Source: Bacteroidaceae bacterium (GTDB taxonomy: Bacteria; Bacteroidota; Bacteroidia; Bacteroidales; Bacteroidaceae). From it: DNA of 32,075 nucleotides. How positions within the stretch are numbered: the first letter of the stretch is position 1; every line of letters starts with the position of its first letter. Position numbers and translations under genes: made by a program. Below, in pieces: positions 26,881-30,649 of the stretch. A model generated the notes under the pieces. It made no database searches. It was not told the DNA's origin and saw only the letters and a list, made by a program, of their open reading frames with translations. The stretch spans positions 1-32,075 of the forward strand of contig JAFZZI010000022.1 in NCBI GenBank assembly GCA_017615835.1, given 5' to 3'.

Positions 26881-26939
26881 AGAATTTTCCTTATTGCTTT
26901 ATCTTCACGACCGCGTCCGGCTATTCCGAATAAAAGGAT

Positions 26940-26947
26940 TACCTTTG
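26940..26947 (+). promoter_or_regulatory. -7 box immediately before manganese exporter gene
   Basis: TACCTTTG is a full TAnnTTTG match lying 3 bases before ATG 26951. It would start the transcript at about 26952-26955, at or past that ATG, so initiation at 26963 (GTG) or 26972 (ATG) may be the true one. No clear -33 element. Confidence 0.4.
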
Positions 26948-26950
26948 CAC

Positions 26951-28021
26951 ATGCTTTCAATTGTGTGGACGATGTGGCTGAATAGCCTTACTGATGTAAT
27001 CCTTACATCAGTCATGATTACCGGAATGGTCGTGGTAATGATGCTGATGATTGAATCGCTTAACATCAAGTCGCGCGGCAGGTGGTTTGATACGTTGAAG
27101 CGGAGCAGGGTGGGGCAGGTCTTCGTATCCGCGCTCCTGGGTATAATTCCAGGGTGTATGGGAGGTTTTGCATCAGTTTCACTCTATTCGCATGGTATGA
27201 TCAGTTTCGGTGCACTTGTCGCTATGATGATAGCCACATCCGGCGACGAAGCCTTTGTCATGCTTGCAATGTTCCCTGCAAAGACTTTTAGGCTTATGTT
27301 GGTTCTCTTTGTCATTGCCGTCGTTGCGGGACTGACTATAGATACATTCCGAAACAGACGGGGCAAGAGAGCCGCTGTTGCATGCAGCAACCTGAACATA
27401 CACGACAGTGACAGCCACGAGTCGCCCAAATCCCGGCATTTCGGCTGGAAAAGAGTGACCATTGCCATCGTGCTGATCCTTTATACGGCAGCTCTGGCTT
27501 TCGGCCTGTTTGACGCGGATGCCGATACTGACGGCAGTAAAGGTCTCAACCTGTTGAACGAGAGGTGGATGAATATCATGTTCGCCTGCTTCAGCCTGTT
27601 GCTGCTTGTCATAATACTGTTTGCGTCAGACCATTTTGTTGATGAACACCTGTGGAACCACATAGTCCTGGGACATCTGCCGAGAATCTTTTTATGGACA
27701 TTCGGAGCGCTGATGCTGGTTGAATTCTGCTTTCCTCTGCTTGACATTGATTCATGGATAGGGTCCAACATACCTCTAATGATAGTGATAGCATCGCTTG
27801 TCGGCATAATTCCTGAATCGGGGCCGCATCTTATATTTGTCACACTGTTTGCCGCCGGTGTCGTCCCCGCTCCTGTCCTTCTTGCAAGTTGTATTTCGCA
27901 GGACGGCCATGCGTCACTGCCGCTTCTCGCTGAGTCACGCAAGGCCTTTCTTGCCGCCAAGGCAGTCAACTGCATCCTGGCCGTTGCTGCAGGTCTGGGA
28001 ATGTATTGGGTGATGGCCTGA
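26951..28021 (+). CDS. Putative manganese transporter (ArsP_2-like, about 10 TM)
   Basis: A 356-residue membrane protein of the 'putative manganese transporter' group. The two halves carry related motifs: GIIPGCMGGFASVSLYSHG with TSGDEAFVML in the first half, and GIIPESGPHLIFVTLFAAG with CISQDGHASLPLL in the second, as an internal repeat of the transport core. Between them lies a polar, His/Arg-rich cytosolic loop (about 140-165). Direction and metal are from family knowledge only. ATG 26972 would give a start right at the first helix and fits the -7 box better. It converges on the Sel1 gene with 16 bases between the stops. Confidence 0.8.
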   Translation: MLSIVWTMWLNSLTDVILTSVMITGMVVVMMLMIESLNIKSRGRWFDTLKRSRVGQVFVSALLGIIPGCMGGFASVSLYSHGMISFGALVAMMIATSGDEAFVMLAMFPAKTFRLMLVLFVIAVVAGLTIDTFRNRRGKRAAVACSNLNIHDSDSHESPKSRHFGWKRVTIAIVLILYTAALAFGLFDADADTDGSKGLNLLNERWMNIMFACFSLLLLVIILFASDHFVDEHLWNHIVLGHLPRIFLWTFGALMLVEFCFPLLDIDSWIGSNIPLMIVIASLVGIIPESGPHLIFVTLFAAGVVPAPVLLASCISQDGHASLPLLAESRKAFLAAKAVNCILAVAAGLGMYWVMA

Positions 28022-29325: not shown

Positions 29326-29380
29326 TTAATTTTAATGGTATTTTTTTTCAAAAAAAACGGTCATCCTTTGCACACACTGA

Positions 29381-29388
29381 CAAAAATA
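29381..29388 (-). promoter_or_regulatory. Possible -7 box for Sel1/TPR gene
   Basis: The minus strand reads TATTTTTG, a TAnnTTTG match. It would give a leader of about 130 bases before the start at 29246 and overlaps the -33 region of the divergent queuosine operon promoter. Confidence 0.35.
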
Positions 29389-29411
29389 GACGTATTGTAA
29401 CGAAATAATAC

Positions 29412-29419
29412 TAAATTTG
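29412..29419 (+). promoter_or_regulatory. -7 box of queuosine transporter/queF operon
   Basis: TAAATTTG matches TAnnTTTG. The transcript should start near 29426 and run straight into the hairpin and pseudoknot leader before ATG 29481. An ATTG at 29394-29397 is near the -33 position but spaced short. Confidence 0.55.
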
Positions 29420-29423
29420 CGGC

Positions 29424-29478
29424 GCCGATTGGGAAATTCCTGTCGGCAGTGTGCTTGTCAACCACTCAAAAAACAAGG
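29424..29478 (+). ncRNA. preQ1-I-type riboswitch in leader of queuosine operon
   Basis: P1: AGTG (29448-29451) pairs with CACT (29463-29466). The 11-base loop ends in CAAC, like the UAAC of the Thermoanaerobacter aptamer whose last C pairs with preQ1. P2: loop bases CTTGT (29454-29458) pair with ACAAG (29473-29477) after the A-rich linker CAAAAA, giving an H-type pseudoknot. The P2 3' strand includes the AAGG next to the ATG, so ligand binding would hide the start region. An extra hairpin (GCCGA 29424-29428 with TCGGC 2943-29447 region, i.e. 29443-29447) abuts P1. The downstream genes are a queuosine-precursor transporter and queF, the expected targets. P1 is only 4 bp, shorter than usual. 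Confidence 0.72.
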
Positions 29479-29480
29479 TC

Positions 29481-30185
29481 ATGTCAACAGAAAAAATTAT
29501 TCCCCGACAGGGTTTCTCTGTCATCTTCCTCTGGCTGGCGATACTATTCAATGTCTGCCTCATCACTTCGAACCTCTTTGCTGCCAAGGTCTTTCAGCTT
29601 TGGGACTGGTGTGTCCTGCCTGGTGCCGTGATAATATTTCCGATATCCTATGTTATAAACGACTGCTTAAGCGAAGTTTACGGATTCCGCAAGTCGCGTC
29701 TGGTCATATGGACGGGATTCGCCATGAACTTTTTTCTTCTTCTTAGTTCATGGATTGTCATCGCCCTGCCGGGAGCCCCCTTCTGGGAAGGCGATGCCTC
29801 ATTCAGATACGTGTTCGGAGCTGCACCGAGAGCTGCCTTCGCATCGCTTGCTGCATTCCTCGTGGGTTCCACCCTCAATGCCATCGTCATGAGCCGCATG
29901 AAGGTCGCCGACCGGGGACTTCATTTCTGGCGGCGCGCCATAATCTCGTCCCTGTTGGGCGAGGCGGCTGATTCGGCCATATTCATACCAATCGTGTTCT
30001 GGAGTTCCGGAGTCCGCGTCATTCTGGTCATGATGGCCTGCCAGGTTGTTGCCAAAGTATTGTACGAGATCATAGTACTGCCCTTCACATCTGTCTTCGT
30101 GAAGAGACTCAAGAGCATTGAGCACATTGACACTTTTGACAGTTCCATATCGTACAATCCATTCAAAATAAGGGATATAGACTGA
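29481..30185 (+). CDS. yhhQ: Queuosine precursor transporter (YhhQ/VUT family)
   Basis: A 234-residue membrane protein with about six helices. Family marks include [29 protein letters not shown] (the conserved Asp-Glu-x-Tyr-Gly region) and the late [19 protein letters not shown]. It imports preQ0/preQ1 or queuine. The start ATG 29481 follows AAGG at 29475-29478; a GTG at 29451 lies inside the riboswitch and is rejected. queF starts 5 bases after the stop region, so the two form an operon for uptake and reduction of the queuosine precursor. Confidence 0.92.
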
Positions 30186-30190
30186 CAAAT

Positions 30191-30649
30191 ATGAAAGACG
30201 AGAAAAAGAGAGGACTAAAGGCCCTCGGTGAGAAGACCGGTTACAACTACAGTTATTCACCCGAACTGCTTGAGGCTTTCGCCAATCAGCATACAGATAA
30301 CGACTACTGGGTTCGTTTCAACTGTCCTGAATTCACTACACTGTGCCCCATCACGGGACAGCCCGACTACGCAGAAATCCGAATAGGCTACATCCCCGAC
30401 CTACGTATGGTCGAAAGCAAGAGCCTGAAACTCTATCTGGTCAGTTTCCGCAACTACGGCGGATTTCATGAGGATTGCGTGAATATAATCATGAAGGATC
30501 TTATTCGTCTGATGGATCCCAAGTACATCGAGGTGACAGGATTCTTTCTTCCCCGAGGCGGTATTTCGATACATCCCTATGCCAACTATGGCAAACCCGG
30601 AACCCCATACGAGCAACTCGCACAGCAGCGTTTGGCTACGCACGAATAG
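30191..30649 (+). CDS. queF: NADPH-dependent 7-cyano-7-deazaguanine reductase
   Basis: A 152-residue unimodular QueF, which reduces preQ0 to preQ1 with NADPH. The nucleophile Cys52 is in [15 protein letters not shown], with the general acid Asp59. The family NADPH motif ESKSLKLY is at 75-82 and HED at 93-95. Length is that of the short bacterial form. Transcribed with the transporter under the preQ1-type leader, so the product of the enzyme would feed back on its own expression. Confidence 0.95.

Follow-up and report, generated by a model that had tools for sequence, protein, structure and literature searches.

A predicted preQ1-I-type riboswitch variant with an adjoining 5′ hairpin in the yhhQ-queF leader of Bacteroidales

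The window analysed here, a stretch of 32,075 nucleotides on contig JAFZZI010000022.1 of a Bacteroidaceae bacterium, carries a short, potentially structured leader directly upstream of two queuosine genes. The question that this locus raises is whether the leader senses a queuosine precursor and, if so, how it relates to the known preQ1 riboswitches and by what means it could control the genes behind it.

The yhhQ-queF operon and its leader

A preliminary description, made from the letters alone, had read the downstream genes as a queuosine transporter and queF, and profile searches bear this out:

29481..30185, + strand: yhhQ, queuosine precursor transporter, 234 aa (TIGR00697, 87.5 bits over the cut-off; PF02592)
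30191..30649, + strand: queF, preQ0 reductase (preQ1 synthase), unimodular QueF-II, 152 aa (TIGR03139, 161.3 bits)

The queF gene begins 5 nt after the yhhQ stop codon. The window's genome also encodes TGT and two genes of the QueA family (G000:C32:91747-92784 and G000:C30:120815-122011). No full-length QueC was found in any of the 37 genomes of the window's genus, which gave only partial profile matches of at most 33.5 bits, compared to 271 bits for the true QueC of genome G027; these partial matches exceed the Pfam QueC cut-off (22 bits) in 33 of the 37 genomes, and we infer that they represent other PP-loop enzymes. The window's genome is 82% complete, and single absences are weak there. 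Having TGT and QueA without a full-length QueC in the genus fits the salvage of preQ0 by way of YhhQ and QueF.

The YhhQ of the window shares 45-52% identity with the best copies in the sampled genomes of its own genus (38% in one case), 64% with that of G030, which belongs to another genus, and 64-72% with those of several named MAGs. Judged by these identities, the yhhQ-queF operon may possibly have been transferred or replaced in the window lineage. Further upstream, positions 26894-28021 of the window encode a putative heavy-metal or arsenic exporter (PF11449, NF037962) that adjoins a Sel1-repeat gene.

Read from the sequence, RNA 29448-29477, upstream of yhhQ-queF, can form an H-type pseudoknot, and the leader can be divided into the following elements:

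29412..29419, + strand: -7-like promoter box TAAATTTG, matching TAnnTTTG
29424..29447, + strand: P0, additional 5′ hairpin adjoining P1, 6 outer pairs (sequence, stem placement and compensatory changes)
29448..29451, + strand: P1 5′ strand AGUG, partner 29463-29466
29452..29453, + strand: L1 UG, its first base U in 174/174 sites
29454..29457, + strand: P2 5′ strand CUUG, partner 29474-29477
29458..29461, + strand: L2 UCAA, variable, 3-5 nt in 145 short-loop sites
29462, + strand: candidate specificity C, preceded by A as in type II, an invariant column in alignments A2 and A5
29463..29466, + strand: P1 3′ strand CACU (covariation)
29467..29473, + strand: L3 CAAAAAA, A-rich linker, its final base A in 174/174 sites
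29474..29477, + strand: P2 3′ strand CAAG, ending 3 nt before the ATG at 29481 (sequence and covariation)

The TAnnTTTG pattern is, we assume, the Bacteroidetes -7 promoter consensus, and the position of this box places the transcript start near P0. The preliminary description had proposed a pseudoknot with a P1 of 4 bp, an A-rich linker and a P2 next to the ATG, which could be confirmed base for base; the would-be fifth pair of P1 is a C-C apposition in the window. It had also claimed five pairs for P2, of which the four of CUUG with CAAG stand, but the fifth (U29458-A29473) is not conserved, as different bases occur at the L2 position opposite a constant A. This A29473 presumably corresponds to the ligand-contacting adenine of known preQ1-I structures, and we likewise take the first U of L1 to be the counterpart of the U that contacts the ligand in preQ1-I. 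The best nested fold of 29421-29490 in RNAfold contains P0 and P2 without P1, with a z-score of -0.99. Folding of the single sequence gives no evidence for P1, and the support for the predicted pseudoknot is entirely comparative.

Comparative evidence for the pseudoknot and its gene context

The leaders of yhhQ relatives share a P1 of 4 bp (NGUG/CACN or NGAG/CUCN), followed by UN, CUUG, 3-5 nt, the C, the 3′ strand of P1, an A-rich linker and CAAG. A covariance model, R1, was built from 21 of these leaders, including that of the window, with P1 as its only structure. R1 gives the window leader 44.3 bits (E 7.9e-6), the next best place in the genome reaching 17.1 bits, a score that is not independent, as the leader is one of the training sequences. 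The case against chance rests on covariation and on the genes that stand behind the motif elsewhere.

Covariation had been named beforehand as the feature to look for in related leaders, and it is present in P1, in P2 and in the extra hairpin. In alignment A5, with 101 distinct sequences, 95.0% of the cells of P1 and P2 together are paired, compared to 82.0% in shuffles, and five of the eight pairs have changed on both sides (two of four in P1 and three of four in P2). The covariation score is 0.277 against 0.067 after shuffling, a value that 0 of 500 shuffles reach, and sliding the partners against each other destroys the signal. P1 by itself is paired in 99.0% of its cells, its outer pair occurring as C-G, A-U, G-C and U-A and its third as U-A, A-U and G-C; in P2, the outer pair is C-G, A-U or G-U, the second U-A or C-G, and the third U-A, A-U or G-C. 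A5 includes the tandem copies and the g6 form described below and omits the UUCUAG/UUCCAG subtype as well as six of the 107 listed sequences (from G102, G709, G877, G613 and, twice, G875); a longer L3 displaces nine rows at their 3′ end, and these were counted as unpaired. Alignment A2 gave a similar picture, with 97.6% of cells paired and two-sided changes in both helices.

The C and the first U of L1 are invariant in both alignments. The counts of 174/174 for the pocket bases have to be read with the knowledge that the C is required by the parser and that the L1 U and the L3 A are favoured by R1. In 171 of the 174 sites, an A precedes the C. The three T's (G022, G132 and G174) are parsing errors: the P1 3′ strand was misplaced, so that these sites counted as long loops, and their sequence reads AAC too.

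We then examined how widely the motif occurs. R1 matches were found in 122 of 201 family genomes (E≤0.1), 14 of which had supplied training sequences, in 48 of 295 genomes of the order (E≤0.05), and in seven of 395 genomes of a phylum sample, six of them in the window's order and one a weak match before no Q gene. This near confinement of the matches to the window's order implies that the motif is essentially a Bacteroidales element. Of the 37 genomes in the window's genus, 27 carry an R1 site and 10 do not; among the 26 relatives that carry one, 22 have the same 30-nt core and four (G891, G119, G894 and G884) have different cores, with P0 weak or absent.

Among the 141 yhhQ orthologues of the family sample (E≤1e-40), 119 are preceded by an R1 site at a distance of no more than 160 nt. 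When the 22 copies without a site were inspected by eye, five were found to carry UUCUAG/UUCCAG versions and five AGGGG/CCCCU, and G033 has a long L3 insert; nine have no motif recognisable by eye, three of these being second copies in genomes with the motif at the other copy, G076 is doubtful, and one fragment in G098 was left out of the inspection. The aptamer before yhhQ in G033 (L266, G033:C5) reads GGGAG...CUCCC, and several tens of inserted bases separate this from AAAAAAACAAG; the inserted stretch seemingly lies inside L3, with the 3′ strand of P2 retained. The UUCUAG version occurs in Bacteroides finegoldii (NZ_OY725915.1) before an annotated queuosine precursor transporter, which is followed by queC, and in Phocaeicola massiliensis (OY725983.1), where it is unannotated, before a frame whose DNA resembles yhhQ. 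The CUUG version is found in Bacteroides sp. 224 (L045) and Candidatus Cryptobacteroides onthequi (L047).

The genes behind the sites were called by blastp against the window's YhhQ and QueF, together with Pfam-checked QueC and QueD. After the exclusion of nine upstream tandem-copy matches and of places matched repeatedly, 173 of 178 R1 sites lie before yhhQ (161), queC (11, including two with a longer leader in G649 and G753) or queD (1). As the training set consisted of yhhQ leaders only and so included none of the 12 queC and queD sites, the link to queuosine genes does not depend on yhhQ alone. Four sites of 24.8-29.8 bits have no Q gene behind them (G101, G758, G743 and G242) and were dropped from the 174-site counts for their gene context, not for their score; the lowest-scoring site before yhhQ has 26.0 bits. 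One further site (L123, G117:C42, 84024-84056, minus strand) is a near copy of the yhhQ leader on the same contig. Beyond a short frame, it is followed by the gene of a lipoprotein-like nucleoside hydrolase (PF01156), a candidate for an enzyme of queuosine salvage that the same switch may control.

At 160 of the 161 yhhQ sites, between 0 and 6 nt separate the match from the ATG (1-4 nt at 151 of them), and so a closed P2 would put structure at the ribosome loading site. At four queC sites (G657:C3:75146, G649:C1:427557, G845:C1:1923672 and G753:C1:390140), the distance is 70-167 nt; occlusion of the start codon cannot fully explain leaders with such a gap, and their expression platform must differ.

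The hairpin adjoining P1 and tandem arrays of the motif

A second hairpin that ends at the base before P1, as first proposed, is found at 29424-29447. Its outer stem of six pairs, one of them U-G, joins GCCGAT (29424-29429) with GTCGGC (29442-29447), and one unpaired base per side separates it from an inner GGG/UCC (29431-29433/29438-29440). We next looked at its occurrence in 140 non-redundant leaders, a set without the tandem genomes. In 49 of them, a stem of 6 bp or longer has its 3′ end 0-1 nt from P1, compared to 16.6 in dinucleotide shuffles (100 sets, sd 3.9, maximum 30). With the pin set 0-2 nt before P1, the best hairpins have a mean energy of -6.0 kcal/mol against -3.5 kcal/mol in shuffles, and a pinned hairpin reaches -4 kcal/mol in 85 leaders, compared to 39-47 when the pin is moved 6-36 nt upstream. 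The placement is sharp: the 3′ end of stems of at least 6 bp abuts P1 in 37 leaders and lies one base off in 17, with 3-13 at each of the next 19 positions.

The base pairs of P0 were counted from the hairpin ends, since MAFFT shifts hairpins of unlike loop length. In the 22 genus relatives with the same core, P0 has 7-9 bp, and across their 15 distinct hairpins the seven outer pairs are intact in all 105 cells (expected 91.4; none of 5000 shuffles), a count that is full partly by construction, as the longest stem at that place was picked, and that kinship may reduce to few events. Two-sided exchanges occur at three of these seven pairs (A-U/U-A, G-C/A-U and G-C/A-U) and are the informative part of the evidence. 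In 14 near-relative hairpins including that of the window, 68 of 70 outer cells are paired (42.7 expected; 0 of 2000), the hairpins and register being hand-chosen and L040 and L041 omitted as near copies of L039. On this comparative reading, P0 is conserved as a structure while its letters drift, and it is frequent and sharply placed but far from universal.

We also considered whether P0 compensates for the missing fifth pair of P1. This idea is unsupported, as a stem of at least 6 bp is present in 38 of 107 leaders in which the fifth pair is impossible and in 11 of the other 33, and a test on hairpin energy found no difference (Fisher p 0.54).

The most surprising part of the analysis lies outside the window, in the related genus g15, where 11 of the 12 genomes with an R1 site among the matches listed carry two or three aptamers head to tail before yhhQ. 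These tandem loci (L110-L119 and L121, in G081, G014, G127, G113, G063, G042, G197, G183, G169, G155 and G098) comprise nine triplets and two doublets (G042 and G155), and the twelfth genome (G141) has a single copy. The repeat period is 29-32 nt. P2 directly abuts the P1 of the following copy in the triplets and in G155, and 3 nt lie between them in G042. First copies have a P2 of CCUG/CAGG or CUGG/CCAG, last copies one of CUUG/CAAG. In the middle copy, P1 and the C are retained, whereas P2 is complete only in G197 (4/4) and weak in the other eight triplets (2-3 of 4 pairs); this copy may be Tte-like, or it may have decayed in part. Leaders that hold more than one aptamer for a single ligand are likewise known from the tandem glycine, c-di-GMP-I and similar riboswitches; in contrast to these, the g15 copies mostly follow each other without a linker. 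In Table 3 of a 2022 survey of 44,270 genomes, preQ1-I is among the classes not found in tandem (PMC9481103), perhaps because such sequences score below the usual models. A phrase search of 5.39 million open-access papers found no report of tandem preQ1; nor was a report of tandem preQ1-I, or of preQ1-I studied in Bacteroidales, found in the literature covered, which included few subscription papers.

What P0 does can be weighed against these arrays. Probably, P0 stacks on the short P1 and steadies the fold. It is nonetheless quite conceivable, if somewhat against our expectation, that P0 lies outside the switch, as a hairpin at the 5′ end of the mRNA that shields the transcript or keeps P1 apart from the sequence upstream. 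In favour of this, P0 lies where the 5′ end is expected, some leaders lack it, and both its letters and its length are free to vary; nor is it more frequent in leaders without a possible fifth P1 pair (38/107 vs 11/33). It also follows the room available: a TAnnTTTG box is found within 90 nt upstream in 115 of the 140 leaders, and a stem of at least 5 occurs in 60 of 80 with at least 21 nt between box and P1 and in seven of 35 with less, so that P0 is common with room and rare with the box close by. However, the 3′ end of P0 falls 0-1 nt from P1 far more often than elsewhere, a spacing that pure end protection would not fix, and in the tandem arrays the preceding P2 occupies the same abutting place as P0; both speak against a hairpin outside the switch.

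Class assignment and predicted mode of control

An Rfam scan of the window at the gathering threshold gave no match at all, and around the leader (29340-29600) no Rfam family was found at E≤10, including RF00522, preQ1-II (RF01054) and preQ1-III (RF02680). Eighteen related loci scanned with Rfam likewise gave no preQ1 family match, and RF00522 exceeded its cut-off (39 bits) in 0 of 201 family genomes, under stricter filters, and in one of 14 control genomes. The comparison with the Rfam preQ1 models that the preliminary description called for has thus put the leader outside current Rfam coverage, as expected of a variant. Below the cut-off, the window's genome has four weak RF00522 matches of 12.6-16.6 bits, none of them at the yhhQ leader. 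When the matches in the family were compared by eye with the positions of yhhQ, the two best (29.6 and 26.1 bits, in G056 and G092) and at least nine of those listed at E≤1 proved to fall in its leader; since each genome has millions of bases, such clustering is not expected by chance.

The proposal of a Bacteroidales variant of preQ1-I type with an extra hairpin is supported by the comparative evidence. The leader has a covarying H-type pseudoknot, the pocket C, U and A, and a context of queuosine genes, but it scores below the RF00522 gathering cut-off of 39 bits and its P1 is shorter than the 5-6 bp of the known types (PMC10622847); because of these two points, we file it as a variant working like preQ1-I rather than as a standard member. 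Among the types, the 3′ strand of P1 is preceded by AC in type II and by UC in type I (PMC11625349), and the window reads AAC, the mark of type II. With type II (RF00522; Tte, Bsu) the leader also shares the H-type pseudoknot, the initial U of L1, an A-rich L3 ending in A, a P2 that uses the 3′ tail and the queuosine-gene context; it differs in its P1 of 4 bp, a mostly plain CUUG/CAAG P2, the abutting P0, a score below the RF00522 cut-off, an expression platform without a Shine-Dalgarno sequence and the tandem copies in one related genus. In type III, described as almost confined to gamma-proteobacteria, the loop is short and pyrimidine-rich and P2 contains an AAGG Shine-Dalgarno (PMC10622847, PMC11625349). 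The type III switch of E. coli yhhQ shares with the leader the control of yhhQ, the AC before the P1 3′ strand and a start-adjacent 3′ tail in P2, but the window has a longer loop, UGCUUGUCAAC, and the tail CAAG, which do not fit the type III definition. Bacteroidota are named among the phyla of type I, with type II spread similarly, in a review (PMC11625349).

The g6 genus has an intermediate form, AGGGG-UACUUGAUCAAC-CCCCU-UUAACAAAA-CAAG (also UUAACAAAACAAG), and such forms give the two best RF00522 matches. We take the linker and tail of the g6 form to match those of the T. tengcongensis type II aptamer, and this likeness ties the Bacteroidales form to the known class. On the other hand, the motif could be a protein operator or another cis-element unrelated to preQ1 and conserved for another reason, as the assignment of preQ1 as the ligand comes from comparison. 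A covarying pseudoknot with the pocket bases of preQ1-I, the queuosine-gene context across several families and the scores of the g6 forms on RF00522 make this the least probable account of all, and we give it hardly any weight.

Hence, we regard it as highly likely, on comparative sequence evidence, that the leader acts as an OFF switch of translation and represents a Bacteroidales variant of preQ1-I closest to type II, with preQ1 as its candidate ligand. Transcription would start at or near P0. In the absence of ligand, CAAG and the A-rich bases ahead of the ATG would be single-stranded, and ribosomes could load. By homology with the known structures, preQ1 would pair with C29462, the A-rich L3 would dock along P1, and CUUG 29454-29457 would close on CAAG 29474-29477, giving a compact pseudoknot 3 nt from the ATG, the OFF state. 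Published translational preQ1 switches are described by occlusion of the Shine-Dalgarno sequence (PMC11625349, Table 1). Bacteroidia ribosomes, according to two studies (PMC9976891, PMC6847099), do not recognise the Shine-Dalgarno sequence, and initiation is partly tuned by structure near the start codon. Since these ribosomes ignore it, the block is most likely a structural occlusion of the initiation region. That the element acts instead by transcription attenuation, as do some preQ1-I type II switches (B. subtilis, PMC11625349), seems very unlikely; the four queC leaders with 70-167 nt after the match would leave room for it, but the P2 of the window ends 3 nt before the ATG, with no space for a terminator ahead of the gene.

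In this translational OFF switch, the logic would be that of end-product repression, as preQ1 is the product of the operon: YhhQ would import preQ0 and preQ1, QueF would reduce preQ0 to preQ1, and the operon would be shut as preQ1 accumulates. A pocket of the preQ1-I kind could also have preQ0, or queuine, as its physiological ligand, that is, the imported compound. PreQ1, preQ0 and queuine present the same guanine-like face, E. coli YhhQ prefers preQ0 (PMC10622847), and in a genus without a full-length QueC match imported preQ0 could be the signal. Against this, the motif also stands before queC or queD elsewhere, where end-product feedback is the usual logic, and the E. coli type III switch before yhhQ is reported to have an approximately 138-fold lower affinity for preQ0 than for preQ1 (PMC10622847). 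We therefore consider preQ0 or queuine an unlikely ligand and retain preQ1.

More tentatively, and with rather less than even confidence, we suggest that these leaders form a separate Bacteroidales subtype of preQ1-I, in which a P0-P1-P2 stack would steady the short P1, control would be free of Shine-Dalgarno sequences, and linkerless arrays of two or three cooperative sites would make a steeper switch. If the assignment is true, a large group of gut-type bacteria would gain a riboswitch that annotation has so far missed: in 201 sampled genomes of the window's family, RF00522 reaches its cut-off in none and R1 finds a site in 122. It would also provide a riboswitch of approximately 30 nt on ribosomes that work independently of the Shine-Dalgarno sequence, so that the mechanism could be tested where sequestration of that sequence cannot explain it. 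Finally, the g15 relatives with one, two and three copies at the same gene would offer a natural series for the study of cooperativity in a class listed without tandem forms.
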